Virus record (IMG/VR): IMGVR_UViG_3300043411_003042
Span: 1-35,091 of that record
Length of the DNA stretch: 35,091 nucleotides
Origin: a virus
Direction: 5' to 3' (one strand)
The notes below the pieces were generated by a model. The model was not told the origin of the DNA. It saw only the letters and a program-made list of their open reading frames with translations, and searched no databases. Shown piece by piece: positions 5,565 through 32,187 of this stretch. Numbering within the stretch: position 1 is the first letter of the stretch; each line of letters opens with the position of its first letter. The position numbers and the translations under genes are program-made.

Positions 5565-7031
5565 TTAATCCTTCCACCAAATATTATCTTCTTTCCAAGT
5601 ACGGTTTAAAATTATATCCATATAGTGACTTTTCTTTAAATCATGTTTTTCATATGCCGCTATTCCCTTGACGCCATCCAAATAATCCTGACGTATTTCC
5701 TTAACTTTACCAGCTGTTAATCCAGTGCGACTAACTTCTGGTAAATTGTATTCCTTGGATTCCTTACGCCCATTCTTTGTCGCTTCAGACATACTCATCC
5801 CATCCTTTAATCTTCTATCAAGAGTAGGCTTAGAAACACCGCACAACGCTGAAATTTGAGTTAGCGTCATCTGCTCGCCATTATATTGGTAATGCTGTAC
5901 ACGCCCCTGAGAAGACTTGACAGGAACATAAGTGTCATCCTGCCAAGTTCTTCCCATAAGAACATCAGCAACAATATGAATGCTGACATCTAAGTCCTTA
6001 GCAATTTGAGCGTTACTTAAATTAGCAACTTTTTTAAGCTGTCTAATTTCCTTCACATTAGCCCACGAAAGCGTAGCCCGATTAGAAGGAACATCAGCCC
6101 TATGATTTACAGACTCCACATCCCCAGCAGGAATTAACATCGCATCCTTCGGATTCATCTGACACTTGATGATGCGGTGATAGAGAGTTTGCCGTGATAC
6201 CTGACAGCGCTCGTCAGAAGCCCAATCGCTAATGCTCTTTTCTTCATCAAAAATTTCAACGAGCCACTTTTCAACATCCTTCCAATGTGGAACTGTCAAA
6301 TCGTTCTGTCTTAAAGTAGCATCATCAATGTTGCGGTAGAAATCCTTGTAAATGCGGTACTTGCGAAGTAAGCGCATTTCGGGCGCACTATCTTCATACA
6401 TCCAGTCCATCAATTTTTTAATCGTAGCAGCGCCAGAATAAACAAGTTGGAAGTAAGTTCCACCTTTGACTTTAACAGGCCGCATATAGCCGTAAGGCTT
6501 GCCAATGATAGGTTCTAGCGTTGCCTTTAATCCAAGAAGATACTGTTCAGGGCCGCAGAAGTTGACACCGATGTATTTACTTTTTTGCGATGGATGCTTA
6601 ATCAAATGAATGCAGCCGTCCCCATCAAAGAAACCTCGAACATAGTGAGACATGAATTCAGACGGATAGTCAGTAGGCCACTCAGCCGTCCACGACTTGC
6701 GAGGGTGAATGTGAAGACGCATCAAATCTTGAGCGATTTTAAACGAGTTGATGCGCCAAACGCTTAGTTCAGCTTTGTTATATGTTTTTCCATTCTTAGC
6801 AAGGGATGTTGTGGCTGGAACAATACCTATAGGGCGATTACTTCCAATCATGTTGTTGAATGATTCAAGTATGTGGCGGTCTTTTGAATGAAGATTCATT
6901 GAAAGTCCGTAGCTATTGGCCCTGTCAACGTATTTGTGCAAACATCCGTCAGCAGCAATAAAGCCAAGCATATAAGCCATTTCTGGGGTCCAAGTAGAAA
7001 AAAATTCTTCGTTGAGTGTGTATATTCTCAT
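5565..7031 (-). CDS. LAGLIDADG homing endonuclease with C-terminal helix-turn-helix repeats
   Basis: The 488-residue protein carries two LAGLIDADG motifs: Y-M-L-G-F-I-A-A-D-G (residues about 20-29) and Y-V-R-G-F-F-D-G-D-G (about 130-139). Both keep the acidic residue that binds the catalytic metal, so this looks like an active monomeric double-motif nuclease. After the catalytic part (to about residue 235) come several helix-turn-helix or NUMOD-like segments, at about 260-290, 330-365, 385-415 and 430-485; such modules help recognise the target in intron- and free-standing homing endonucleases. A TATAAT box ends 9 nt before the ATG, so it has its own promoter. It sits between the capsid gene, with its terminator, and a diverged copy of the capsid 3' end. 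This suggests a free-standing homing endonuclease that invaded the capsid gene end. It is not inside an intron or intein here. Confidence 0.9.
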   Translation of the reverse strand: MRIYTLNEEFFSTWTPEMAYMLGFIAADGCLHKYVDRANSYGLSMNLHSKDRHILESFNNMIGSNRPIGIVPATTSLAKNGKTYNKAELSVWRINSFKIAQDLMRLHIHPRKSWTAEWPTDYPSEFMSHYVRGFFDGDGCIHLIKHPSQKSKYIGVNFCGPEQYLLGLKATLEPIIGKPYGYMRPVKVKGGTYFQLVYSGAATIKKLMDWMYEDSAPEMRLLRKYRIYKDFYRNIDDATLRQNDLTVPHWKDVEKWLVEIFDEEKSISDWASDERCQVSRQTLYHRIIKCQMNPKDAMLIPAGDVESVNHRADVPSNRATLSWANVKEIRQLKKVANLSNAQIAKDLDVSIHIVADVLMGRTWQDDTYVPVKSSQGRVQHYQYNGEQMTLTQISALCGVSKPTLDRRLKDGMSMSEATKNGRKESKEYNLPEVSRTGLTAGKVKEIRQDYLDGVKGIAAYEKHDLKKSHYMDIILNRTWKEDNIWWKD

Positions 7032-7146: not shown

Positions 7147-8007
7147 TTAGGCAACAATAATTCTCGAAACGCTGTAATCATTTATCACACCAAAGCCCAC
7201 TTCTTCGAAGACAACCCATCCCAACCGAAGTTTCTTGGGGTCGTCAGCAGGGAGAACAGTGATGTCTTGTCGAACAGGCATTGCGCCAACGAACTGAGCA
7301 GGTGCGAGAACATACACAGCGTTCTTTGGAACCATCGTAGAAACGTGGATGTCCGCAGAGTAGATGTGTCCGTAAAGACCTGTCATCAAGATGTCTCTTT
7401 GGGTTGCTTCGTCAAAGAAGTCCTTGCCCCAGTTTCGAACATCGTTGTAGCGTTGTGGGTGCATAATCACCTTTGCGCCGATAAGTTCGTGCTCTTCAAT
7501 CAGCGTAAGAGCAAGGTTGATGTTTTCTGGCTGAAGCGTTCCAGACACAGCGATGCTGTGGTCTGAAGGAACAGCTGCGTTGATAACTTTGAAAACTTCA
7601 ACATCTTCTTGTCGTTGCAGAGAGTCTTTAGCTCGAACTTGTGCTCGGTCCACAATGTAGTATCGTCGTTGATTAATTTCGTTAATCTTGATTTGTGGGT
7701 TGGTAGCCAACTCAATAACAGGGATTAACAACTCTTCAGCTTCAACTACGTGAGTTGGAACCATTCCGCGCTTTGGAATGACATATGACTTAACAGCCAC
7801 ATCTCTTTCGTAACGAGGAAGAGCGCCTTGTGGTAGTTCGTCTACCATAAGTAATTTTCGTCCAATTGCTTGATACATCAAGCTAGTTTTGATGGGCTCT
7901 ACCATTGCTTGCGCAAGAGCTACACGTCCATCGGCGGTGTCGAGCGCCATTGCAATAATAGCTTCTCGTTGCTCATTGGTGTTTCGATTGTTTCTTACCA
8001 TGCTCAT
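7147..8007 (-). CDS. Major capsid protein (HK97-fold type)
   Basis: The 286-residue protein has the properties of a short HK97-type major capsid protein. It has a helical N-arm (residues ~10-60), a segment rich in beta-strand with P-R-Y-E-R-D and V-K-S-Y-V-I-P-K-R-G, a central region with H-P-Q-R-Y-N-D-V-R, and a C-terminal V-G-F-G-V-I-N-D...S-R-I-I-V strand. Context supports this strongly: it is the last gene of a TerL-portal-protease/scaffold-decoration-capsid series and has a strong Shine-Dalgarno (GAAGGAGA) and a strong terminator, as expected for the most abundant virion protein. Codon use looks more GC-rich than that of the surrounding unknown genes. A diverged copy of its last ~23 codons is found at 5287-5388 beyond a homing endonuclease. 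Identification is by pattern and context, since no search was possible. Confidence 0.82.
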   Translation of the reverse strand: MSMVRNNRNTNEQREAIIAMALDTADGRVALAQAMVEPIKTSLMYQAIGRKLLMVDELPQGALPRYERDVAVKSYVIPKRGMVPTHVVEAEELLIPVIELATNPQIKINEINQRRYYIVDRAQVRAKDSLQRQEDVEVFKVINAAVPSDHSIAVSGTLQPENINLALTLIEEHELIGAKVIMHPQRYNDVRNWGKDFFDEATQRDILMTGLYGHIYSADIHVSTMVPKNAVYVLAPAQFVGAMPVRQDITVLPADDPKKLRLGWVVFEEVGFGVINDYSVSRIIVA

Positions 8008-8044: not shown

Positions 8045-8764
8045 TTAGCTTCTGTTAGTCCATGCCGCCTTGTTTGATGCTTGGAGTTGAGTAAAGTAGA
8101 GCAAGCCTGCGCTTGAGTCATATTTATCAACTTTTCCGATGATTACACCGTCAGCAGATTCTGCGCCTCTGTCTACCTGAATCAACTTTCCAACATTGGA
8201 TAATGTTGCACCAGAAGAAGAGCCGAAAGTTAGATAGTCGCCTGGCAAGAAGGTAACAGACGCATCTTGGTCAGCCGTGGATGTGCTTGTTTTCGCCGCA
8301 GCTGTAAATCTATCAGTTACGAATTGACCTGAAGGTGATGTGTAAACACCAATTCCACGTCGTGGTCCTTGATAGCCAGTTGCGCCACTTGTTGGGTCGG
8401 TAACGTTAGTTACAAGTTCGTCCATGAAATCACCCAATGCTCTTTTTGCAACAGCATAGAAGCCGTTATTAGAAGCGGTGAATGTTGAGCCATCGCTGCT
8501 TACAACAGTTGAACCAACAGGGTCAGGAAGAATGGTCGTAGCGCCAACTCTTGCGTGGTCGTCAGCAGCGAAGCCTACAAAGAAGCCCGCGTCATGTGGG
8601 AATGTGCTTGAGCCGTTGAAAGCGGTTTCTGAAAGGGCTCGGTCAGCAACTGCGCAAAGTCCAGTGTATGGATTTTTTACAAGTGCATCACCAGCCAAAC
8701 ATGTTACGCTAGCAGGCATTTCATAGTTTGATTGAATTAGTTCGAAAAGAGGTCGAATAGCCAT
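8045..8764 (-). CDS. Capsid-associated structural protein, possible decoration/head protein
   Basis: The 239-residue protein is rich in Gly, Ser, Thr, Ala and Asp with repeated short beta-prone segments and almost no charged helical stretches, a composition common in capsid decoration or head-stabilising proteins. It lies 37 nt upstream of the major capsid gene, shares its GC-richer codon use, and has a good Shine-Dalgarno (AGGAGT, about 11 nt before the ATG). The position between scaffold-like genes and the capsid gene is where decoration proteins are usually coded. No named family motif was recognised. A minor head or tail-sheath-like role cannot be excluded. Confidence 0.55.
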   Translation of the reverse strand: MAIRPLFELIQSNYEMPASVTCLAGDALVKNPYTGLCAVADRALSETAFNGSSTFPHDAGFFVGFAADDHARVGATTILPDPVGSTVVSSDGSTFTASNNGFYAVAKRALGDFMDELVTNVTDPTSGATGYQGPRRGIGVYTSPSGQFVTDRFTAAAKTSTSTADQDASVTFLPGDYLTFGSSSGATLSNVGKLIQVDRGAESADGVIIGKVDKYDSSAGLLYFTQLQASNKAAWTNRS

Positions 8765-8798: not shown

Positions 8799-10613
8799 TT
8801 AATCGAATTTAGTCATGAAAAGGCCCTGAAGAGCCTCTTTTAAGTCGTGGGGCGCAGAATTTTGCGTTGCCGCATTGTTAAACGCACCTGGGTTTAAAGA
8901 GATGTTCGAATGTCGAACGTTGCGATTTTCAGAATAGCTAGAAGCCACTCTTTCAGCTGCTGAAGAAGCAGACTTAAGCATCAATTTGCCTTGTGCAATC
9001 ATAGTTGCTGGGCTTAAATTGTCAGCCATCCACATGTCAGCGTTTGCGTCCACATCTTTTGGCTCAATAACATTTGCCAATGCAAGTTGGCAACTTACAG
9101 AATAAGCTGTCTTTAATCTTGCTTTGTATAATGTATTAGCTTTTCGTGAAGACTCATCATCTTCGTGTGGTTTGCGAGTAAAGCCATCACCATTTTCTTT
9201 TTCGTCTTTTGATTTTTCACAATCTTGGGCGGATTCAATGGTAATTTCAGTGTCTGCAACAACATTTTTCACTGTAGCAACGCTTGCGCATACTGGGCAA
9301 TAACCTTCTGTTTCACAATCTTCGCAGATAGCTATAACTGTTTTGCAATCTTGGCACTCGGCTTTGTTAACCATTTTTGTGCTTGGATTGTTGCAGCCAC
9401 TGCATTCCACAATTCGCTCAGCCACAGTTGTTTTACGTGGAGTAACCACATTGTCCATTTGTGTTGGAACGGAATAATTGTCAATACGGTCTGGACTTTC
9501 TGATGGAATGTTATCAAGTTGATTAAAATCAACTGAATATTCTAAACTTCCATCACTGTTGCCGTCTTTTTTAACAACTTCATATCCACTCTTAAGCTGA
9601 AGATTCTCAGGATTATTTGTAGGAATAGGTTGTTTACTAAATGTTGGGTTGTCTTCTTTGAGGCTGTTGCCTTCAGAATTTTGTTTTGTCGTAGTGGGTC
9701 GTTTATCTTCCCCAATATATTGAGCGTCACCCGCGTGTTGGAATGCTTTACCGCCTGCTGATGTATCTTTTCCAAGTCCAATGTCCCTGGGTTTAGTTTC
9801 ATCTTCGGCAATTACCGTGCGGGTGTTAACGCCTGCAAGAATTGCAGCGCGTTCTTGTTTGCGAGCTAATAGCTGTTTTGCATCCATAGGTTCCACCTTG
9901 TCTTGTATTTCTAGCGGGTTTGCCGGAGCTTCAACCGCAAGTTCTGCTTCATCCAGTGGAAGAGCTTCTTCCTTAACTGGTAATATTTCGTCGTCATTAT
10001 CTTCAGCACTAACACCGCCAAAATGTTCATCTAACAATCTTTGAACTGCATCAATTTCATCTGCTGGTATTTCGATTTGAATTAAGGCTGTGTTGCCTTC
10101 ATCTTCAGTTACTTCGCTTAAATCTGTGTTTAAATCTTCTTCAAGTTCTTCACTTTCGTTGATAGCTTGCTCAACTTCTGGTGAGTGCATTTCAGGTGTT
10201 TCACCTTCAAGTGCTTCTTCTTCTTCTGATGGAATATGACCATGTTCAGCAATTTCATCTTCAATAGATTCTTCGCTGGGCAAGATGCCATCTTTGTCGT
10301 CGTTTTCGTCGTCTGTGTTTTTGTCTTTTGCGAAGTCAGTAGTCTTTGTTGCTCCACCGTGAAGTCCTATCACTTTTTCAGCATCTTCATCACTTAATCC
10401 CATCTCAGATGCGATTCTTGGAAGTACTTTAGAGCGATAAGAGTTAGCCACTACTTTTGCTTCTGATAGGCTTAAACCTGCGTTTTTAACTAAGTCTGTT
10501 ACGCAACTTTCCATATCTTCGGCATCAGTAGTATTTAAAATATCTCGAAACTCAGCCAATCTCATTGACTTAAGTACCGATTCACGCTGGGCGCTGGTAT
10601 TTTGATTTTTCAT
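8799..10613 (-). CDS. Acidic zinc-cluster protein of the head module, possible scaffold or head-assembly protein
   Basis: This 604-residue protein has three parts. Residues 1-~75 form a helical domain. Residues ~90-330 are very acidic and low in complexity (long Glu/Asp runs). Residues ~400-445 form a dense Cys cluster with five C-x2-C pairs (starting C-S-G-C, then C-Q-D-C, C-E-D-C, C-P-V-C), which looks like two or three zinc ribbons or a B-box-like fold. The C-terminal ~90 residues are Ala/Ser-rich and helical. Acidic, disordered proteins coded just before decoration and capsid genes are often scaffolds, but a zinc cluster is unusual for one. It begins immediately after a 31-codon ORF whose TAA abuts its ATG. 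A Shine-Dalgarno-like AAAGGGAG lies about 12 nt upstream. Function unknown. Confidence 0.6.
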   Translation of the reverse strand: MKNQNTSAQRESVLKSMRLAEFRDILNTTDAEDMESCVTDLVKNAGLSLSEAKVVANSYRSKVLPRIASEMGLSDEDAEKVIGLHGGATKTTDFAKDKNTDDENDDKDGILPSEESIEDEIAEHGHIPSEEEEALEGETPEMHSPEVEQAINESEELEEDLNTDLSEVTEDEGNTALIQIEIPADEIDAVQRLLDEHFGGVSAEDNDDEILPVKEEALPLDEAELAVEAPANPLEIQDKVEPMDAKQLLARKQERAAILAGVNTRTVIAEDETKPRDIGLGKDTSAGGKAFQHAGDAQYIGEDKRPTTTKQNSEGNSLKEDNPTFSKQPIPTNNPENLQLKSGYEVVKKDGNSDGSLEYSVDFNQLDNIPSESPDRIDNYSVPTQMDNVVTPRKTTVAERIVECSGCNNPSTKMVNKAECQDCKTVIAICEDCETEGYCPVCASVATVKNVVADTEITIESAQDCEKSKDEKENGDGFTRKPHEDDESSRKANTLYKARLKTAYSVSCQLALANVIEPKDVDANADMWMADNLSPATMIAQGKLMLKSASSAAERVASSYSENRNVRHSNISLNPGAFNNAATQNSAPHDLKEALQGLFMTKFD

Positions 10614-10789: not shown

Positions 10790-13333
10790 TTAAATAATCC
10801 ATGAAATAGAAGAATAGATATCTCCATTTACTTCTTTAATTTCGGAAACAGATATTGTTCCACAGTCATAACAATATGACCGTCCTGTGGAAGCTATTTT
10901 GTTAACTTCTCTATTTCCACATCCTGGACAAACGAATCCTACTGGAAGAATCTTTTCAGCTTTTCTGTCAAGCTTGTTTCCAAGTTGGGCTACTCTAATA
11001 AGAGTATCTGGGCTTGTCTTCCATGAAGCCATCATCATTGGCGCAGTTCCACCAGGACCAGGCGCAGCACCAACAGGGGCTGGGCTACCAGGTGCAGGAG
11101 CTGTAGCGGCTCCTAATCCCATGTCTCCACCAAGCTCTAATGAAGGGTCTTCCATCATAGGCTCTGAATCGTTTGCATCTTCTTTTCCTTCATTTGGTTT
11201 GACTTTTGCAGTGAATTCAAATGATAACTGTGCGTTACAAGAATTACAATTTCCTTCTCCGTTAGCAATATCAACATCTTCGCTACCGCATTGTGGACAA
11301 ACCGTACCCCAAGGCTTTTTGGTGCCGGGTTCTGGCATGTCGTCAATATTGCCTGGTTCTGCTTCAGGATTTTCAGCAGTAGGAGCAGTGAAAGAAGAAA
11401 CTCCAAAGCCATCGGCTCCACCAGTTAAATCTCCCATTGGTGCTGGTGCTCCAGCTGGTGGCGCACCCATAACTCCTGCTGGCGCTTGTGCGAATCTGTT
11501 TAAAATTTCTTGTCGTTTTGCAACTCTAAGATTTTTTATAGACTCACTCATAATAACGCTTGGGCCTTCTACAGCATCAACACCAATTTGTTCTGGAACA
11601 TCGGGTTGTATCTCTGATGGAGCATCAGCTGTAAAAGTTTTTCTTACGGTTGATGTAACAGAAGCACTAACGGTGTCTCCATTGATGTTTAAGTCTGTAA
11701 ATGAGAAAGTAGATGGGTCAACTGTGTAACCATTGGATGTCATTATGTCTATTGCTTTATCTCGGAAAGCTGATTCAAAATTTTCATCCTTGGGGTCAAG
11801 ACCAACGTCACTAACCGTGCATTCTAGTCTTTTGGTGCTGGTTCTTTCGTCAGTCACTTGAATTGCTGATGTTTTAGTTGTTGACGCAGAAACAATCTTG
11901 TTGATTAATTTTTCAGCAGCATTAGGATTAGACACTAGTCGCTTAGCAGCTGTAACAATACTTCTGCTGGAATAATTTCCTGCTTCTGAATAATCCGCCA
12001 GCCAACCTATTACATTTTCATACACACCTTCTTGTGATGCAAACCGATTTGCTCCCCAGAAATCTTTTCTAGCTCTAACTTGCAATCTTGACTCTCTCAC
12101 TGAAGCTGAGCGAGCAACTTCAATATCAGTCAACAAATCAGTTTCGTCTACATTACTTAAAGCGATGACCAATTCTTTTGGATGTGCTGACAATTCGTCG
12201 GCAGAGTTGGCAAGAGCAAACAATGCTGTTTTAATGTGGTCTCTTAAAGGTTGTTCAGTTTCAGTTTCAGCTATAGTTGCTAAAGCAGCTTTGTATCTGT
12301 CAGATTTAGAAACTGTTTTTCTAAGTAGAGATGGTTCAATGTTGTTGTTGTCGTCAATTTGTGCTCTAACCAATCGAGTAACTGATTGAATTGCTTTGCT
12401 TACTTCTGATGTAACAATATGCAAACACTCACTAATATCTGCCGCTGTTACGTTTTCATTCACAATAGAACCTAAAGCGTCTAAGATAGCAGCTTCGGTG
12501 GCTATTTCTGTTGAAGAAAGTTTCCAGAAATCGTTTCTTTTAGCTTCAACTCTTCGTGTTTTATCGCCAAGGTGAGCCAATTGAATTAATTCAACAAAGT
12601 CATTTCTTTCTGCAAGAGATTTTGTTGTTTCAACTACTTCTTCTGGAGTAACTCTAGCGGCAATAACTGCTTTGCTAAGAGCTTCTATGGAAGAACTTGT
12701 TACCAATCCCACATCTCCTGGTCCATAATTATTGCGAACTTGTTCAATTTGTTCTTCAATAACATCGGTTGGGTGGCCTCTTCTAGCATCATTGAGAAGA
12801 TTTTCTCTTACATCAATTTCATTGTTTTTTCTAGAATACAAACCAGCATGTTCTCCTAAAAGATTTTCTTTCACAATATTTTCACTTCCAGGTCTTAAAT
12901 TATTTTTACTTAATTCCCGTTCTTTGATATCTTGCTCTGAATTTGTTCTGTTATATCGACCAGCTTTGTCTTCAAGAAGTCGCTCTTTGACATCTTCGTC
13001 AGTGCCAGTTCGCACTGCTTCAAGTTGCTCTTCTCGGGTAGTGTCATACTCGTGTGATGGTTTCCAATTTGCTGTGCGAGTAAAATTCTGAAAATCGGCT
13101 AACAAAGATGCCGCAACACGTGGGCCGTCTTCTGACGCAATTAGAGATTTGTGCTCTTCAGTAAGTTGTGGGTCAAAATCACGAACAAGTTGTTCATGAT
13201 AAAACGCTTTAATAGTGCCATCGGCTGAAAGTCGAAGCTCGTGTCCTGATTTATCGGACACTTTCACTTCTTGCTCCATTACCGCCGCTTCTCGCTTATT
13301 GCGAGCTTGAAAGAACTGCTTGAAAAAGTCCAT
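10790..13333 (-). CDS. Nested in-frame start: candidate separate scaffold protein (847 aa)
   Basis: Within the 1416-aa gene, Met570 (ATG at 13333) is preceded by GAGGAAA at 13341-13347 with an ideal 7-nt spacer; this is one of the best Shine-Dalgarno sites in the window and better than that of the full-length start. The encoded piece starts MDFFKQFFQARNKREA and includes the helical repeats and both C-terminal zinc ribbons but not the protease. The break falls right after a Gln/Pro/Gly-rich linker, a natural domain boundary. This mirrors nested scaffold genes such as lambda Nu3 inside C. That the start is used in vivo is inference. Confidence 0.6.
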   Translation of the reverse strand: MDFFKQFFQARNKREAAVMEQEVKVSDKSGHELRLSADGTIKAFYHEQLVRDFDPQLTEEHKSLIASEDGPRVAASLLADFQNFTRTANWKPSHEYDTTREEQLEAVRTGTDEDVKERLLEDKAGRYNRTNSEQDIKERELSKNNLRPGSENIVKENLLGEHAGLYSRKNNEIDVRENLLNDARRGHPTDVIEEQIEQVRNNYGPGDVGLVTSSSIEALSKAVIAARVTPEEVVETTKSLAERNDFVELIQLAHLGDKTRRVEAKRNDFWKLSSTEIATEAAILDALGSIVNENVTAADISECLHIVTSEVSKAIQSVTRLVRAQIDDNNNIEPSLLRKTVSKSDRYKAALATIAETETEQPLRDHIKTALFALANSADELSAHPKELVIALSNVDETDLLTDIEVARSASVRESRLQVRARKDFWGANRFASQEGVYENVIGWLADYSEAGNYSSRSIVTAAKRLVSNPNAAEKLINKIVSASTTKTSAIQVTDERTSTKRLECTVSDVGLDPKDENFESAFRDKAIDIMTSNGYTVDPSTFSFTDLNINGDTVSASVTSTVRKTFTADAPSEIQPDVPEQIGVDAVEGPSVIMSESIKNLRVAKRQEILNRFAQAPAGVMGAPPAGAPAPMGDLTGGADGFGVSSFTAPTAENPEAEPGNIDDMPEPGTKKPWGTVCPQCGSEDVDIANGEGNCNSCNAQLSFEFTAKVKPNEGKEDANDSEPMMEDPSLELGGDMGLGAATAPAPGSPAPVGAAPGPGGTAPMMMASWKTSPDTLIRVAQLGNKLDRKAEKILPVGFVCPGCGNREVNKIASTGRSYCYDCGTISVSEIKEVNGDIYSSISWII

Positions 13334-15040
13334 ATTTTTATTTCCTCGGGTCTGGTTAATTGGTTTGATGCTAGATTGGGGTTTTGAAACCACCATTTGT
13401 GTTTGAGTGTCTTTTTGAACACCCAGTGTTTCGGCAAGATTCATTATTGATTCTGCCAATTTTGTTATCTGCTTATTGTTATAAGCAGATTGAGCCAACT
13501 CTGATGGTGCAGAATTGTTTTGCGAAACAGAAGCTGTTATCATCCTGTCTGCATTTACTTCTTCATTTTCATCATGAGCCCAAACTATTCTTGGGCCTTT
13601 GGTGTTGGCAAAAATACCACCACCAAATCCCATAGGCATTCCTGTAAATGCCTGATTTTGCGTTTGTGGTGCGCCTTGTGGTGCTCCAACTTGTTGCGAT
13701 GGTTGTGGGCCGAGAGCACGTCCAACGGCTCCAGCTTGAGAGTAGTCATCCTGTGCCACATTTGACCCAGGTTGAAGTTGCTGTTGTGGTTGCATAGAAC
13801 CTTGATTCATTGGCTGTTGACCAGAATCTCCAGTTTCAACTCCATCATCAATCATGTCTTGCATGGTGGATTGTAAATCCGCCATAGATTTGGTAATTTT
13901 ACCAACGTGTCCTAAATCAACATTGTCTTTTCTTGCAAAAAGATTCATTACAGCAACTTCTAAGAAATTAAGAGCAAGATTTAACATATCAAGTATGTTT
14001 AACCCTGCGTTTCCTTCAATTCCAAGGAATTTTAAAATATTTGCAACAGTTGTGTTGTTGCCTGCACCATCAGCTGCTAAAAGTTGTCCACCGACAAGAG
14101 TTCCAGCACTTTGTGCTACTCTAATAGCATCTTTTGTAGTGTCTTGTGCTTTTCTGAGACAATTTTCATATGCTCTGCGAATTACAAAATCTTCTGGAGT
14201 CGAAGTACTAGCTAATGCAATTGTGGTTCTGAGTGATTCTGCTTTTCTGTCTAGCGATGCTGCTTTTTCAATAATATCATCAACATCGTATAATTCTTCA
14301 ATCATGCAACTGTCAAACGCACCGTCGCCAACAACAGATAACTCAATGAATTTAATTCCGTGGTTTTTCTCGTAAACTTTTTTACCAGTTCTTGGATGTG
14401 TCTTTCCTTTGTATTTCTTAAGACAATCGCAATATTCTTTTTCTGTTGTGGCCTTGTTTCCACACTCAGAACAAGTTCCACTTTGTACTTGGCAACCCAT
14501 AGACACATCTTTCATGTACCCAACGCGAATACCACGAGCAATTTCAGGATATGCTTCTTCGTCTACTATAAATGTGCAATATACACATTTTTCCTTATCA
14601 TCCCATTCTGCATAAACAACCATTCCTTTGGCTTGTTCAATGTCATCGTTTTTGTGATTCGTATAAATTGGAACCCCTTCAAACGTTTTGTAAGCAGGCA
14701 TTTTGTTGTTTTTTTGGTCAACTACTTCGGATGTTAATTCTGATTCACTAAAATAATCACCATTGGCATTTGCTACATCAGCATCTATTGCTCTTGCTCG
14801 CACCCAAAGCAATTTTCCTTGGTGTTTTTTCATTGCATCAACAATGTCAAAATCTTTGTATTTTTTAAATACATCATCTGCATCTGCATAAAGGCTTAAC
14901 AAACCTTCTTTTGCAGCAACCCTAACAGCAGAATTCGTAGCCATAGCAAGTCTTGCATTTCCAGCACTTTTTCTGTCATTGCTATTGACCAAGGAACTTA
15001 TGGTAATAAATCCACCTGATTTTCCTCTTTTCTCCATCAT
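10790..15040 (-). CDS. Prohead protease-scaffold fusion polyprotein with zinc ribbons
   Basis: The N-terminal ~250 residues of this 1416-residue protein fit a phage prohead serine protease. A segment A-Y-K-T-F-E-G-V-P-I-Y-T-N-H leads to a candidate catalytic His129. G-Y-M-K-D-V-S-M-G-C follows with candidate Ser180, and then F-I-E-L-S-V-V-G-D-G-A, the usual motif after the active site. A Cys cluster (about residues 190-206) is inserted after the Ser. Then come a Gln/Pro/Gly-rich linker (~400-480), an internal Met570 with its own ribosome-binding site, a helical repeat region (~670-775), further helical domain(s), and two C-terminal zinc ribbons (C-P-Q-C...C-N-S-C and C-P-G-C...C-Y-D-C). By analogy with lambda C/Nu3, the downstream part is probably the internal scaffold, made both fused and separately. 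The mature head should lack most of it. Start at the first of two consecutive ATGs. Confidence 0.75.
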   Translation of the reverse strand: MMEKRGKSGGFITISSLVNSNDRKSAGNARLAMATNSAVRVAAKEGLLSLYADADDVFKKYKDFDIVDAMKKHQGKLLWVRARAIDADVANANGDYFSESELTSEVVDQKNNKMPAYKTFEGVPIYTNHKNDDIEQAKGMVVYAEWDDKEKCVYCTFIVDEEAYPEIARGIRVGYMKDVSMGCQVQSGTCSECGNKATTEKEYCDCLKKYKGKTHPRTGKKVYEKNHGIKFIELSVVGDGAFDSCMIEELYDVDDIIEKAASLDRKAESLRTTIALASTSTPEDFVIRRAYENCLRKAQDTTKDAIRVAQSAGTLVGGQLLAADGAGNNTTVANILKFLGIEGNAGLNILDMLNLALNFLEVAVMNLFARKDNVDLGHVGKITKSMADLQSTMQDMIDDGVETGDSGQQPMNQGSMQPQQQLQPGSNVAQDDYSQAGAVGRALGPQPSQQVGAPQGAPQTQNQAFTGMPMGFGGGIFANTKGPRIVWAHDENEEVNADRMITASVSQNNSAPSELAQSAYNNKQITKLAESIMNLAETLGVQKDTQTQMVVSKPQSSIKPINQTRGNKNMDFFKQFFQARNKREAAVMEQEVKVSDKSGHELRLSADGTIKAFYHEQLVRDFDPQLTEEHKSLIASEDGPRVAASLLADFQNFTRTANWKPSHEYDTTREEQLEAVRTGTDEDVKERLLEDKAGRYNRTNSEQDIKERELSKNNLRPGSENIVKENLLGEHAGLYSRKNNEIDVRENLLNDARRGHPTDVIEEQIEQVRNNYGPGDVGLVTSSSIEALSKAVIAARVTPEEVVETTKSLAERNDFVELIQLAHLGDKTRRVEAKRNDFWKLSSTEIATEAAILDALGSIVNENVTAADISECLHIVTSEVSKAIQSVTRLVRAQIDDNNNIEPSLLRKTVSKSDRYKAALATIAETETEQPLRDHIKTALFALANSADELSAHPKELVIALSNVDETDLLTDIEVARSASVRESRLQVRARKDFWGANRFASQEGVYENVIGWLADYSEAGNYSSRSIVTAAKRLVSNPNAAEKLINKIVSASTTKTSAIQVTDERTSTKRLECTVSDVGLDPKDENFESAFRDKAIDIMTSNGYTVDPSTFSFTDLNINGDTVSASVTSTVRKTFTADAPSEIQPDVPEQIGVDAVEGPSVIMSESIKNLRVAKRQEILNRFAQAPAGVMGAPPAGAPAPMGDLTGGADGFGVSSFTAPTAENPEAEPGNIDDMPEPGTKKPWGTVCPQCGSEDVDIANGEGNCNSCNAQLSFEFTAKVKPNEGKEDANDSEPMMEDPSLELGGDMGLGAATAPAPGSPAPVGAAPGPGGTAPMMMASWKTSPDTLIRVAQLGNKLDRKAEKILPVGFVCPGCGNREVNKIASTGRSYCYDCGTISVSEIKEVNGDIYSSISWII
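12717..13040 (-). repeat. Imperfect ~20-residue helical repeats in the scaffold region
   Basis: On the protein level the segment has about five imperfect units with the pattern [DI]-[VI]-[KR]-E-[RN]-x-L followed by a Gly/Asn/Arg-rich turn: D-V-K-E-R-L-L, D-I-K-E-R-E-L, I-V-K-E-N-L-L, D-V-R-E-N-L-L, then V-I-E-E-Q-I-E. It opens with R-E-E-Q-L-E-A-V-R, which also occurs in the protein encoded at 18456-18947. The repeats are diverged in DNA, so they are old. Confidence 0.6.
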
Positions 15041-15067
15041 AATGTTGGTTTCTCTCTACTTTGGTTC

Positions 15068-16030: not shown

Positions 16031-18418
16031 TTAAATATAAACAGATGAGCCCATATGTTGTCCAGCACCCAGAAGTCTTCTAATTGTTTGCATGATAACT
16101 TTTAAAACTTCTTCAGAGTGTTCGTTTAATTCACTTTCTGTAAATCTTAAAACAGTCCACCCTTGTGTGGCTAATAAAGAATCACGTTTGCGGTCTTTTG
16201 CGATTTTCTCTGGATTGTTATGATATATTTCTCCATCTGCTTCTAAGCCCAATTTAATAGCTGGTATAGCGGCATCTAGTTGATATTCTAAAGAAGGTCC
16301 AGCTAAATATTGTGCATACCATGCTAATGGTAATCCAGCTTGCATCAATATTTTATATAATTTTTGCTCTAATGAAGTAAATCGGTATGTTTGCTTTGTG
16401 TCACCTTTTTTGGCAGCTATTCTTGTCATGGCATCACCACCAAGAGATTTGTCTAATTCTTGTAATTGATAAATAGCCAATCTGTTCATTGGAGTACAAA
16501 ACGGACCACCATCTGCTGGACCAATTGCCAATTGTTCTAATATTCCTTCTGATTCCATAGGGATAGGTCCAACCATCCCTCTTCCTGTAACCGGAGCAAT
16601 GCTTTCCAGATATGCTCTATGGGCGCTACTTATGATTTTTTTACTTGCGGTTCTTATGATTTTTTCGTTTTCACAAGATGCTAACTGCACATCATATATA
16701 TCTCCACTTACACAAGACGCGAATCTATAATTACCTTCCCAATCAGTGCTGGCCGCTGGTGCTAATCCTGGCATGCCTCCCATATCTGGTGAACCTAGCG
16801 GAGATGTTGGGCTTTCAGGGGTAGAAATATTTGGTCCACCGGGCATCCCAGGTAGAGCGCCTCTAAATCCTGTTCCCATACCACCGAATCCATTTGTAAT
16901 GTCAGTGTTCATCAAGTCTGGTGAAGAAATAAACGAAGAACCTTGTTCAAAACGAAGTCGTTCAACTTCTTGGTCATATGGAAGTCCAAGAGCTTCAACC
17001 ACAGACTGATTTGAAACAATGCCAGCTTGATTAGCCGCAAGTAGTGTTTGCAACTTTCCAGTATCATCACGCAACTGTAGGTCATCCCATTTTACAGTTG
17101 GATAAACATACTCTATTTGCCCTCGCTTTCCTTCTGTTGTAAATCCATTCCATATAGCAACAGGCTTGTAAAGATGCTCTTCCATCCAAAAAGCGACTTC
17201 TTCTCTAAACCTTTCTAATCTTTTTGCCATCGTAAGTAAGCCTACTTGAGCATTGCTGTATGATGGTCCTTCGCCATTGATAATAGCTTTGTTTAACATT
17301 AAGCCATCAATAATGTCTTGGTTTATGTTTTCATACTCTTGTGATAGCTGTAGTATTTTACCACTGGCTCCCACATAGTCGAATTCAAACGCATGGTGAG
17401 TTACAATAGTAAGTAGAGGGTCATTTGCTAAAGACGTTAATTCGTCTTGTGCTTGCATCAAATCTTCTTCTGTTGCAGGTCGGTCTTTATCTCCAACTTT
17501 AACAATTTTAACTGGTATGATATGTCTTTCAGCAACCAACCAGTTTGCTTGTCTAATTTTATCTTTATAGGCTAGTGTTTGAAACAGCCTTCTTAACAAA
17601 GAAGTTCCGAATGGTTGCCAAGGCATTCCACCTCGTTTAAAATGGTAGATACATTCTTGAGAAAAATGAATAGGTTGACCGCTTTGAATCAATTTACGCA
17701 TTTCTGGCATCATAGAATTATAAAGTTTTTCAGGTTTCTTTTCTTGAACCACTTTCTTCATCATGTCATCAGGAATGTAGAAATATTCTGGTTCTTGGTC
17801 TAGCATCGCTGGATGAACTTCTATATGGTCTGGATTTAAAACAGATAAGTTTTTCCAACTTGCGCCTTCGTGATTGCATTGTTCTCCAGTATCTGGATTA
17901 ATATTTAATCCACCGCACGTTTCACATTCAATAGATGCCAAAACAAAACAGTCGCCCCGAAGGTGATACTCTTGTGATATTTGAGGGGTTTTTTTAGTGA
18001 TTTTTAATTTTCTGTTTAATTTCTCAAAATAATCTTTCACATAAGCATTTGCGCATTCCAGAGTAAAACCACTTAATGGAAAGTCTGTGTAAAATTCTAT
18101 ACCAGCTGCAACTTTCGGTTCGTTGTCCACCCACCACTGAGCCCAAAGATAGACTTCTTTTCTGTTGTTGGGTATTTGCCATGATGACGCAGTGAGCCAT
18201 GGTGCATAAAACGATGGTGGTCCGATAGTTGAGTTTTGACCACCGCCAGAATATTGTCCTGTTCTTTTTGTAACTGTTCCGTCTGTTCTAGCTGTTCTTA
18301 TGCTCGCTAACGGTTGTTGGTTTAAGTCTTCTTGCGCTGTTTTAATACCCATTGCGCTGTTGGCAGCAGTTTTAATCGCTACATCTAAACCTTCAATCTT
18401 TTTATCTTTATTAGCCAT
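16031..18418 (-). CDS. Portal protein with C-terminal DUF559/Vsr-like nuclease domain
   Basis: Residues ~60-560 of this 795-residue protein look like a phage portal: W-A-Q-W-W-V-D-N-E-P-K-V-A-A-G-I-E-F near the N-terminus, H-L-R-G-D-C-F-V, F-K-R-G-G-M-P-W-Q-P-F-G-T-S-L-L-R-R, and a long helical part with I-N-G-E-G-P-S-Y. This would be the dodecameric DNA channel at the capsid vertex. A short Cys/His cluster (C-E-T-C-G-G...C-N-H) is inserted at about 165-185. Residues ~678-788 match a DUF559/Vsr-type PD-(D/E)xK nuclease: T-S-L-E-Q-K-L...Y-Q-L-D (Asp715), G-L-E-A-D-G-E (Glu726, Asp728), H733, D-R-K-R-D (742-746) and G-W-T-V-L-R-F-T (Arg758). All expected key residues are present. The N-terminal 45 residues hold three I-[KR]-T-A segments. 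Only a GGTGA lies before the ATG. Confidence 0.85.
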   Translation of the reverse strand: MANKDKKIEGLDVAIKTAANSAMGIKTAQEDLNQQPLASIRTARTDGTVTKRTGQYSGGGQNSTIGPPSFYAPWLTASSWQIPNNRKEVYLWAQWWVDNEPKVAAGIEFYTDFPLSGFTLECANAYVKDYFEKLNRKLKITKKTPQISQEYHLRGDCFVLASIECETCGGLNINPDTGEQCNHEGASWKNLSVLNPDHIEVHPAMLDQEPEYFYIPDDMMKKVVQEKKPEKLYNSMMPEMRKLIQSGQPIHFSQECIYHFKRGGMPWQPFGTSLLRRLFQTLAYKDKIRQANWLVAERHIIPVKIVKVGDKDRPATEEDLMQAQDELTSLANDPLLTIVTHHAFEFDYVGASGKILQLSQEYENINQDIIDGLMLNKAIINGEGPSYSNAQVGLLTMAKRLERFREEVAFWMEEHLYKPVAIWNGFTTEGKRGQIEYVYPTVKWDDLQLRDDTGKLQTLLAANQAGIVSNQSVVEALGLPYDQEVERLRFEQGSSFISSPDLMNTDITNGFGGMGTGFRGALPGMPGGPNISTPESPTSPLGSPDMGGMPGLAPAASTDWEGNYRFASCVSGDIYDVQLASCENEKIIRTASKKIISSAHRAYLESIAPVTGRGMVGPIPMESEGILEQLAIGPADGGPFCTPMNRLAIYQLQELDKSLGGDAMTRIAAKKGDTKQTYRFTSLEQKLYKILMQAGLPLAWYAQYLAGPSLEYQLDAAIPAIKLGLEADGEIYHNNPEKIAKDRKRDSLLATQGWTVLRFTESELNEHSEEVLKVIMQTIRRLLGAGQHMGSSVYI

Positions 18419-18455: not shown

Positions 18456-18947
18456 CTAAGCCCAGCTTTTATCAGATGGTAAATCTTCGTAACCTGTCCA
18501 ACCTTTTCCTGATATGTATGGAAAATCACCACGAACTAACAATTCTCCCCTTGCACCTTCTGTAGAGGACATGGATTCTGGCAAGTCAGAGTTAACATTT
18601 TCTTGTCTTACTGCTTCCAATTGTTCTTCCATTGTGGTTTCTTCTGGATTTTTATGATAAGGTGATAATCTTCGAGCTTCTTCTGCTTCAACTGCTACAC
18701 CTTCGCGGTTTGAATCAGGGTTGTCAAAATAATTGTCACTTGTAATACTATCGGTTTTGTTTACAATAGTATCCCATAATCTTTGCTCATAAGCGCTTGT
18801 GGCTTCTTCAATAGGATTGTGATGTAAAATTTCGCTATCATCTTGCTTATCTTTATTATCTTTTTTAAGCATTTGTTGCTGAATAGCGAATTCTATGGGA
18901 TTGAAAATCCCACCTCCAAATCCTGTTTGAGATATTTTATACCACAT
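18456..18947 (-). CDS. Hypothetical protein starting MWYKISQ, with EEQLEAVR motif
   Basis: Unrecognised 163-residue, acidic, probably largely disordered protein. It starts MWYKISQTGFGGGIFN; the MWY start is shared with two other genes, and a G-F-G-G-G-I-F segment also occurs in the linker of the protease-scaffold protein. Residues ~100-108 contain E-E-Q-L-E-A-V-R, identical to a segment of the scaffold repeat region, and residues ~50-56 a related Y-E-Q-R-L. The start lies 3 nt after the stop of the upstream gene (coupled). It is placed just before the portal gene, so a role in head assembly as a small linker or packaged protein is plausible but unproved. Confidence 0.6.
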   Translation of the reverse strand: MWYKISQTGFGGGIFNPIEFAIQQQMLKKDNKDKQDDSEILHHNPIEEATSAYEQRLWDTIVNKTDSITSDNYFDNPDSNREGVAVEAEEARRLSPYHKNPEETTMEEQLEAVRQENVNSDLPESMSSTEGARGELLVRGDFPYISGKGWTGYEDLPSDKSWA

Positions 18948-29139: not shown

Positions 29140-32100
29140 TTAACGTATTCGTCCAAGCCTAACAGTTCTAGACCTGGGTAAACTGTTCTGAGTTTTATCT
29201 TTTAACGCTTCATATGCTGCGGCTGCAACTGCATCTGGGAAATCATCGTGAAACCCTGTGCGTGCTTCAATCTTGAAAGATTTTCCGCTAAATTTTCTTT
29301 GAAGATTTTTAAATTGTATTTTGCATTCTGTTACTTCGCCTAATTCTTCAACAATTCCATTGTTTTCGTAAATGGTATCTTGATTATAAAAAACTATTCG
29401 ACCATCTCCAAACAGTTCGTATAAATCACCGTATATGCTTGATTTGTATTTAACATCAAAAACTTTATTTACTGCATTTAAGCCGTGACTCATTAATCTT
29501 TTTATAGATTCTTGGCTATTCCATTGGTCGTAACTAATTTGAACAAATTTAAACCTAGTTGCTAATTTCAAAATATACATATCTACTTCATCGGAATTAA
29601 TTGGTTGATTTTTGTTTTTAGGCTTCCAGACATGCATATGGTCTATTATTATTCGTTGCAATGCTTTCCCATCTGGACCTATAGCTGATTCCATGGGTTC
29701 TGCGTGACAAACAACAAGTGTGTAGTAATCAGATGATTTAGCGGGGTCTAAATGGGCATAATAACGAACCAATGGCGCTCCATGCTCTGCTCGGTATGTA
29801 TTACTGACGTGTTGAAAAGCTCGGTCAACATGTTCTTCGGCTATCCAAGTGTTAGAGTCAGATGAACCAAATTTAGCCCCATAATACACATGATATGTTT
29901 GTGGATTTTTCTTTTTTTGTTGGTCTAAGTATGACTTTTCAATATAAGGATTGGACAACCAAGTTGGCAACTGGGCCATTAATACCATATTGTCGTCAAA
30001 ACTATCTTGATACAATTTATAGAATTTACCATACGGACCTAGTGGGTTGGAAATACAAATCATTTTCCCATCCCTGCCAAACGTAGAAATAGCGGGTTTT
30101 AGCTTATCGTACAGTTCGTCATCTGTGCCACCTTCTGATGATGCAGGGGCCATTTCTGCCATCTCGTCAATGATAATGACAGCCATTGTTCCACCAACCA
30201 TTCCTGATGCGCTGGAGTGACCTGATTTTAGCTGAATCGTTCCAACCATGGGCTCTTGTCCGCGTTCAATTCTGCGTTTGTTTTCTAGCTTGTCATGGTC
30301 TGTCAGAAAAAACATTTCTAATTGGGTTGATTTACCAATACTTTGGACAAAATAAGGGCTTGATTCAGCTAACTGCCTTATCTTGTCAAAAATAGCCATT
30401 TTAGCCTGCCCTTCTGACACAGCAACATTTAGAATAGTTATTGTATCAAATTCCAAAATAGGATATCTGTCTTGAGGGTGTCCCATCATTAAGAATCTAT
30501 ACACTTCATACAGTGTGATAACAGCAGTCAAAAAGCTATTGTGAGTTGGAATCAAACTTCTGCCAGCTAAGTACATATGAGAAGGATGGTCAACTTCAAT
30601 GCATTGCATTCCTTCGTTTTTTATTTTATCACAACGAGTGATGTAATGCAATTTTTTATCCTGTGCGTCAAACTTTAGATGGTCAACACAATCTTGTTTT
30701 GGTTCAAAACCAAAAACCTTGCTGTTTTCATGTAAAAAACAAACAACTTTATAGACATCATTGTTGTGTTCAATTTTTGATTTAAATCCTAGGCTAGACA
30801 CCAATTCATGATAATCTTGAGCTAATTCATTGTTTTGTGTTAAAAATTCAACAGATTTGTCACGTTCGTTAACATAACCACTTATGTCGTTAAGACCCTT
30901 AAGCAGCTCCATTCTTTCATCTATTGACGATTCAAAATATTCTCTTGAAATAGAAATTAAATCATTATTGCTAGAATTTGTATTGTTATTTAAAGTATTA
31001 AGTCGATATTTATTAGCAAAAGACAAACCTAGTAAATAAGGATTCATGCTAAGTTCAACAACATTGGGGTAGGTTAGTGGTTGTGTTATTGGTATTGCAT
31101 GATTAAAACTTTCAACACCGTCATCTGACATATGGGTTAAACTGTTGTATATGTCTTCAGTTGTGATTATTTTGTCATCTGTATATTCCGTTAGATTTAA
31201 ATTGTTTATCTGATTGTAAGTTAATGTTTTCCATTCATGTGATGCGCCAGCTTTAATGATTTCACCATTTGAAAATTCTAATTCATAGGCTTGTTCATCA
31301 AAATTTATGTCAGATTTAGCAGTAATTTTTGTTGCTGAACCATCGGGTGAGAAAACACAATCGCCAACCTGAACATCACCCATGGTTTTCCAGCCGTTTG
31401 TTGTCAATAAAGGAGTTGATAAATCAAGCATTTTGCCACTTCTTCGTCCTAAAACCAGCAAAAGCTCTTGAAATTTTCTTCCAAATTTATCTAAAATTTG
31501 CTTTCTTACTTTATATTCTATTTCTGGGTCTTCCAAAAGACACATTTCTGTTTGAAACATATCAATCAATTCTCGTGATTTTAATGCTTCTATTTCGTCT
31601 TCTTGCTCTTGTCTAATAACTTCTTCAGTAAGTTTGTTATAACGCGCATCACGTATTTTTGGGTCAAGCCTAACACATGACAAACATGGCGAATTTTCTG
31701 GCGGCATCAAATTGTTTTTGCCGCTTTCTTCTCCTTTTAAAAGAGAGTTGTAATATCTTTTTTCAAACTTCCTATTGTAATCCCAAATACACCCTGAGCA
31801 ATCTTCTGTTTTTGTGTCTTCTATTTTTAAATGTGTGTTTCCAGGGCTTCCAGCATAAAAAACTTTTAAAATTAATTTTTGCCAAGGCGTAAGTCGAAGA
31901 TTTAAAAAGTAAGGATGTTCACAAAAAACAACAACATCTACCATGCCATCAACATTAAATTTGTTTTTTTCAGGATTTGGTGGCGGAGAAACTTCTGTTC
32001 TTTTTAAATTAATAACAGGCAAGTCATCTGACTCTAAAAGATTGTCATCCAAATTATCAGAAGATTCAGGTGTTAAATTTTTCTTTGAATCTTCTATAGC

Positions 32101-32187
32101 TGCCTGTTCGAATGCAGCCAAACCTCTTCGAAATGCCTCTACAGCATCTGCGTTTGCTGCCGCTTGACTATTTTTTACTTTCTTCAT
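29140..32187 (-). CDS. Terminase large subunit (TerL) containing an intein
   Basis: This is the DNA-packaging motor ATPase and nuclease. Removing the 298-residue intein leaves about 717 residues. The ATPase part has L-V-L-G-R-R-S-G-K|S (Walker A, split by the intein after Lys252) and I-I-I-D-E-M-A-E-M (Walker B, Asp674/Glu675). The RNase-H-type nuclease has three conserved acids: H-L-D-P-A (Asp814), Y-D-Q-W (Asp887) and D-D-F-P-D-A (Asp985). Upstream of the motor are an acidic, low-complexity N-terminus (~80 residues) and, at about residues 130-171, two Cys pairs (C-S-G-C and C-L-S-C) that look like a zinc site, unusual in TerL. Without splicing the P-loop is broken, so packaging should depend on intein removal. 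It starts 4 nt after the stop of the upstream TerS candidate. Confidence 0.93.
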   Translation of the reverse strand: MKKVKNSQAAANADAVEAFRRGLAAFEQAAIEDSKKNLTPESSDNLDDNLLESDDLPVINLKRTEVSPPPNPEKNKFNVDGMVDVVVFCEHPYFLNLRLTPWQKLILKVFYAGSPGNTHLKIEDTKTEDCSGCIWDYNRKFEKRYYNSLLKGEESGKNNLMPPENSPCLSCVRLDPKIRDARYNKLTEEVIRQEQEDEIEALKSRELIDMFQTEMCLLEDPEIEYKVRKQILDKFGRKFQELLLVLGRRSGKMLDLSTPLLTTNGWKTMGDVQVGDCVFSPDGSATKITAKSDINFDEQAYELEFSNGEIIKAGASHEWKTLTYNQINNLNLTEYTDDKIITTEDIYNSLTHMSDDGVESFNHAIPITQPLTYPNVVELSMNPYLLGLSFANKYRLNTLNNNTNSSNNDLISISREYFESSIDERMELLKGLNDISGYVNERDKSVEFLTQNNELAQDYHELVSSLGFKSKIEHNNDVYKVVCFLHENSKVFGFEPKQDCVDHLKFDAQDKKLHYITRCDKIKNEGMQCIEVDHPSHMYLAGRSLIPTHNSFLTAVITLYEVYRFLMMGHPQDRYPILEFDTITILNVAVSEGQAKMAIFDKIRQLAESSPYFVQSIGKSTQLEMFFLTDHDKLENKRRIERGQEPMVGTIQLKSGHSSASGMVGGTMAVIIIDEMAEMAPASSEGGTDDELYDKLKPAISTFGRDGKMICISNPLGPYGKFYKLYQDSFDDNMVLMAQLPTWLSNPYIEKSYLDQQKKKNPQTYHVYYGAKFGSSDSNTWIAEEHVDRAFQHVSNTYRAEHGAPLVRYYAHLDPAKSSDYYTLVVCHAEPMESAIGPDGKALQRIIIDHMHVWKPKNKNQPINSDEVDMYILKLATRFKFVQISYDQWNSQESIKRLMSHGLNAVNKVFDVKYKSSIYGDLYELFGDGRIVFYNQDTIYENNGIVEELGEVTECKIQFKNLQRKFSGKSFKIEARTGFHDDFPDAVAAAAYEALKDKTQNSLPRSRTVRLGRIR
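30538..31431 (-). mobile_element. Class 3 intein in the TerL Walker A loop
   Basis: The insert runs from Met253 to Asn550 of TerL (298 residues), with extein Ser551 at +1. It begins M-L-D-L-S-T-P-L-L rather than with Cys or Ser, so it is not a normal class 1 intein. Instead it has the three residues that define class 3 inteins: Trp319 in block B (S-H-E-W), Cys529 in block F (M-Q-C-I-E-V, at the place usually held by Asp) and Thr548 in block G (P-T-H-N). The terminal His-Asn and block A pattern are intact, so splicing should work. In class 3 inteins the block F Cys starts the reaction. The central part (about 382-440) resembles a LAGLIDADG endonuclease that has lost its catalytic acids. Confidence 0.85.

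Follow-up and report, generated by a model that had tools for sequence, protein, structure and literature searches.

The fusion gene and its neighborhood

The analyzed DNA, called the window throughout, was a whole 35,091-base viral record with a G+C content of 37%. Nearly all of the window genes were carried by the minus strand, in the order of terminase (with an intein-like insert), portal, fusion gene, 604-aa ORF, 239-aa ORF and major capsid protein. The coordinates of the fusion gene, its parts and its neighbors are given in Table 1.

Table 1. Features of the fusion gene and the adjacent genes in the window
Feature	Coordinates	Strand	Evidence and remarks
Full-length fusion ORF, protease and C-terminal partner, 1416 aa	10790..15040	-	PHROG head maturation protease, 2.5e-21; fused in every relative of its own clade
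Full-length start codon	15038..15040	-	Weak SD GAGAG at 15052-15056, -3.5 kcal/mol
Prohead protease domain, about residues 50-250	14291..14893	-	AF2 pLDDT mostly 80-94; structural matches; invariant residues
Linker, residues 404-569, Gln/Pro/Gly-rich, mostly low-confidence, one short helix at 523-538	13334..13831	-	
Nested Shine-Dalgarno GAGGAAA	13341..13347	-	
Nested start codon ATG, Met570	13331..13333	-	ATG in 71/71 sequences
Predicted nested product, 847 aa	10790..13333	-	Short helix and beta region, a repeat region, one helical and one beta domain, and two zinc ribbons
First zinc ribbon, C1248-C1268	11237..11299	-	Invariant cysteines
Second zinc ribbon, C1371-C1393	10862..10930	-	Invariant cysteines; Pfam Zn_ribbon_IS1595 below cut-off, 22.3 vs 25.4
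604-aa acidic ORF, alternative scaffold candidate	8799..10613	-	Between fusion gene and capsid gene; clade-conserved
239-aa ORF, possibly decoration protein	8045..8764	-	Position only; no match in PHROG search
Major capsid protein	7147..8007	-	phrog_2522, 8.1e-67
Portal protein with C-terminal nuclease-like domain	16031..18418	-	phrog_16240, 6.7e-37; DUF559 and MTES_1575 (REase) above cut-off

The intein-like insert of the terminase large subunit (29140-32187) was located in the Walker A region (LVLGRRSGK...LIPTHNSFLTAV), and its LAGLIDADG-like match was just under the cut-off. The 488-aa ORF directly after the capsid gene (5565-7031) had the look of a homing endonuclease, as judged by eye only. 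The 8-mer EEQLEAVR was common to a 163-aa ORF (18456-18947) and the nested product; motifs resembling it were also present in other late proteins, and these may represent a common peptide for binding or targeting. A search of genome contigs found no relative.

The AF2 model of the first 569 residues of the fusion showed a confident domain at about residues 50-250, helices up to about residue 400 and mostly low confidence at 404-569. In the VIA-align comparison, T4 gp21 came first (Z 9.1, rmsd 2.9, 128 residues, 22% identity), and herpesvirus proteases came next at Z 5.9-6.8, the herpesvirus rows alone being within the range of unrelated rows. The top two Foldseek matches were 5jbl chains with probabilities of 0.94-0.95 and an E value of 0.03. 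Residues H129 and S180 (DVSMG) were invariant in 28 aligned sequences and likely form the catalytic pair, and no Pfam match to an S49 protease was obtained for the window gene. As modeled, the protease domain has the T4 gp21/herpesvirus fold and is set apart from the S49 type of lambda. An earlier note on this DNA had predicted an N-terminal protease, which was supported by both the PHROG profile and the gp21-like fold.

In four relatives (L023, L106, L114 and L119), in-frame inserts of roughly 350-400 aa were observed just after the DVSMG motif. The inserts of L106, L114 and L119 began with Cys and were followed by a Cys placed after Asn. All four are probable inteins, located three residues past the likely catalytic Ser.

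The AF2 model of the 847-aa nested product had a mean pLDDT of 67.5 and contained a helical domain, a beta domain and two zinc-ribbon regions. A structure search with this model of moderate confidence gave nothing significant in PDB and BFVD, and a sequence search of PDB returned weak zinc-ribbon and unrelated matches only. The zinc ribbons that the earlier note had placed at the protein end were found there as C1248/C1251/C1265/C1268 and C1371/C1374/C1390/C1393, all invariant in 12 aligned sequences. The same note had put the nested start right after a Gln/Pro/Gly-rich linker; the linker was present, but "right after" was a loose description, as the low-confidence chain of residues 404-524 was followed by a helix at 523-538 and again by low confidence up to residue 569.

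Constraint on the nested start

The sequence GAGGAAATAAAAATATG was located at 13331-13347 on the minus strand, and its ATG was the in-frame codon 570 of the 1416-aa ORF, hence the length of 847 aa for the nested product. The pairing of GAGGAAA with an in-frame ATG at Met570, from which the analysis had started, was therefore real. The ATG followed GAGG by 10 nt, a spacing resembling the 10-12 nt after GGAG at the 8045 ORF, the 604-aa ORF and the capsid gene. The Shine-Dalgarno (SD) energy was -5.9 at the nested start versus -3.5 at the full-length start, and -6.8 to -8.4 at phage structural genes. The SD of Met570 was the strongest of 31 in-frame Mets in the window gene, and about 4.6% of coding-strand ATGs had an equal or stronger one. 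The pattern GAGGAAAN{5,9}ATG occurred 2 times in the window versus 0.71 expected, with at least 2 occurrences in 19 of 100 shuffles, and GGAGN{5,10}ATG occurred 14 times versus 15.3 expected. When the window gene was recoded synonymously, an equal or stronger SD was obtained in 74% of trials, because the residues R-G-N largely fix the DNA. Within the window alone, the nested site was not beyond chance, and the case was therefore moved to relatives.

Two IMG/VR scans yielded about 70 relatives with overall identities from 77% to about 30%, most of them at 40-50%. The boundary codon was ATG behind a GGAG-type SD in 71 of 71 sequences, the window included; in the most distant relatives (L117, L119 and L120-L122) the boundary Met was picked by eye from the listed context. 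The invariant ATG extended to relatives whose nested product was just 26-32% identical. Loss of the site and the Met in related phages, which the earlier note had named as grounds against its proposal, was seen in none of these sequences. A bias from the search peptide NKNMDFFK was checked for, and no relative shown carries this peptide.

The SD was assayed further in 31 representatives of under 85% identity. The nested Met had the best SD among all in-frame Mets in 26 of them. At least one other in-frame Met had a stronger SD in L103, L105, L114 and L120-L122. The summed SD energy of the representatives was -265.7, whereas synonymous recodings averaged -156.2 and reached -190.2 at the lowest, none of 2000 being as low, and these numbers are not independent trials, since the sequences share descent. 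Of the alignment columns with Met in 80% or more of the representatives, column 570 alone had a conserved SD (mean -8.7, weakest -5.9), the other columns averaging -1.4 to +0.6. Conservation of the protein around Met570 was comparatively low (local conservation 0.47), and the SD was kept while the overlying residues varied between RGN, EGR, GSR, EVI, RST and GEY. Synonymous conservation in a 26-sequence clade peaked over the SD and ATG, reaching 0.94 against a gene mean of 0.58 (standard deviation 0.09). As read from these alignments, the synonymous conservation at this single place is not explained by the protein. Complementarity, the usual spacing, a start codon and constraint beyond coding need were all found at Met570.

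Nested and separate starts in other families

The full-length members of the L120-L140 family were about 1810-1890 aa long, and their C-terminal part was homologous to that of the window gene (hhalign 99.85%). Three SD and Met sites were found per gene, near residues 426-459, 541-573 and 1468-1565, and they were the top three SDs in 7 of the 8 loci reaching all three. L138, through either a frame break or a real shortening, was open for only 846 codons and reached the first two sites, at which it was closely like L136.

The actinophage-type fusions included Delilah gp97, Pupper gp94, Rhodococcus E3 gp77 and IMG/VR relatives. The Bxz1-type (cluster C) mycobacteriophage fusion, exemplified by Delilah gp97 (1369 aa, hypothetical protein), had a homologous protease and a long C-terminal part, and it was followed directly by a short ORF and the capsid gene. 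As in the window gene, a nested SD and ATG were present, here AAAGGA and ATG before a MARSNLASRG motif (AAAGGAACCGCCAAC-ATG, M972). In contrast to the window gene, the nested SD was weaker, and the C-terminal part had no detectable sequence relation to the nested product, a result that held for the actinophage C-terminal part in general. In nearly all loci that had the (N/D)QG motif, a Met preceded by AAAGGA or by a stronger SD lay upstream of this motif, while some such relatives, for example L157, were without a clear site at the boundary. For 18 fusions, in which the sites were partly chosen by eye, the summed SD beat 2000 of 2000 synonymous recodings. The codons Lys AAA and Gly GGA were rare in these fusions (11% and 14%, respectively).

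A further in-frame Met, M1190, was observed nearer the C-terminus of Delilah gp97 (L057, 7935-12044) behind AAGGGAGCCAAC-ATG, with an SD of -7.6. An additional Met of this kind, in frame, behind an SD and closer to the C-terminus, was also present in L056, L124 and L131; in all four loci it may be another nested start.

A third group, found by its protease with the actinophage profile, carried the protease as a separate gene of about 230 aa. In nine contigs (L189, L194, L195, L197-L199 and L201-L203, some of them near-identical), a protein beginning with the exact pattern MSRFD(D/N)EL was encoded by a separate gene; AAGGAG or GAGGAG preceded its start, and an in-frame stop was located 4-7 codons ahead of it. 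The protease gene was also split in L192 and L193, where this exact pattern was unmatched. In L204 and L205 the MSRFDDEL start was internal, with 192 open codons before it and AGGAGCTAGA upstream. Judging by these gene arrangements, the nested and separate-gene states of the same start interchange in this one more distant group. The conserved-looking site of the L190-type clade was no stronger than synonymous recoding gives; it was dropped as added support, since recoding accounts for it.

In Bacillus phage G, the protease domain had a clear homologue in gp19 (hhalign 99.93%), which was situated upstream of the capsid gene but, unlike in the window, was a separate 300-aa gene. Phage G gp21 was tried as a homologue of the nested product and gp20 as a homologue of the protease half, and no homology was detected for either.

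Proposed expression model and probable role of the nested product

We proposed, with a probability of about 0.8, that one frame encodes two proteins, namely the full-length protease fusion and its C-terminal part alone, the latter made from the internal start. Ribosomes starting at 15040 would produce the 1416-aa protein, in which a long flexible linker joins an N-terminal prohead protease to the large C-terminal part. Initiation in vivo at the second SD and ATG (13347-13331) would yield the 847-aa C-terminal part alone. The short protease-less form would probably be made in excess, because the nested SD (-5.9) is stronger than the full-length one (-3.5). During co-assembly the C-terminal part would self-associate, and a minority of chains would bring the protease inside. 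The kept site and Met strongly supported the claim of the earlier note that a protease-less product arises by nested in-frame initiation, while its label as a scaffold follows from the protease fusion and the gene position only. The nested product is most likely a scaffold or inner core protein of the prohead. Control of head size or protease dose by the ratio of the two products, as suggested in the earlier note, is a guess.

It is possible, though we consider it rather unlikely, that the 847-aa product of internal initiation is instead an inner-core or ejected head protein and that the role of scaffold belongs to the 604-aa neighbor (8799-10613). This neighbor is acidic, clade-conserved, nearer the capsid gene and preceded by a strong SD (-7.6), and the nested product has two zinc ribbons and matched no solved fold. 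Against this, a single ORF of roughly 180 aa separates the fusion gene from the capsid gene in the actinophage-type genomes, and therefore their scaffold would be in the fusion or elsewhere. Furthermore, scaffolds fused to the protease in one gene are known in phages such as P2 and lambda (PMC8508860). A fusion of the 604-aa ORF into L120-type or actinophage genes was also considered but is not claimed, since weak alignments only were obtained; the best sub-alignment, out of several that were tried, had P 0.0003.

A pathway in which cleavage of the full-length fusion within the linker is the sole source of the separate C-terminal part, and the SD-like site is left unused, was judged improbable. 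The linker was predicted to be mostly disordered, and scaffold-fused prohead proteases such as P2 gpO cut themselves, both of which count in favor of cleavage. However, three observations are not predicted by cleavage: the invariant ATG whose SD persists through residue changes, the synonymous conservation, and the fact that this codon begins a real gene in the split relatives of another group. An even smaller likelihood was assigned to a role of the internal SD-like site in pausing ribosomes, by which the protease would fold before the C-terminal part is made; the site does lie at a domain boundary after the mostly disordered linker, yet pausing needs no Met, whereas every one of the 71 sequences has the ATG, and in the split relatives genes begin at a comparable site. 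Coincidence, by which R-G-N-K-N-M is encoded by SD-like DNA by chance, deserves hardly any weight, for although it survives both the pattern count and synonymous recoding in the window alone, it is contradicted by the conservation across relatives and in other families.

Two starts in one frame could be compared with known systems. Herpesvirus UL26/UL26.5 resembles the window gene in its N-terminal protease of the same predicted fold (HSV-2 protease, Z 6.8), its linker and its C-terminal part, as well as in an in-frame co-terminal product without the protease; an assembly role of the C-terminal part would extend the likeness. UL26.5 has its own promoter and transcript, whereas the nested start of the window gene has a ribosome-binding site. 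The C-terminal part of the window gene is also larger and ends in zinc ribbons, and no sequence link was found between it and the UL26/UL26.5 C-terminal parts. The gpC protein of lambda is an S49-type protease of 439 aa; the window fusion is about three times longer, has zinc ribbons and carries a protease of the gp21/herpesvirus type. Lambda C/Nu3 is nevertheless similar in that protease and putative scaffold share one gene, an in-frame internal start yielding the C-terminal part; that the lambda scaffold starts in frame inside the protease gene is given by Shaw and Murialdo 1980, as cited in PMC8508860. The analogy to C/Nu3 drawn in the earlier note hence held for the logic but not for the protease fold. 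T4 gp21 was the best structural match to the protease domain. The T4 scaffold is encoded by a separate gene, whereas the window gene fuses the protease and its partner and has a nested start. By analogy, UL26/UL26.5 is a closer working parallel than C/Nu3.

A literature search, with most subscription journals outside its coverage, found no report of a nested start in this gene. Lambda and herpesviruses already exemplify the principle; here it recurs in several phage families and is combined with a protease of the gp21/herpesvirus type in a very large fusion, some of the relatives being located on contigs of 300-476 kb. The proposal is directly testable, because related fusions occur in Mycobacterium smegmatis phages. 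Standard annotation would record one long "hypothetical protein" or "protease" and miss a second, probably more abundant protein. It is slightly more likely than not that large phages in general use stacked in-frame starts to express the capsid-assembly module, with two to four co-terminal proteins made per frame.
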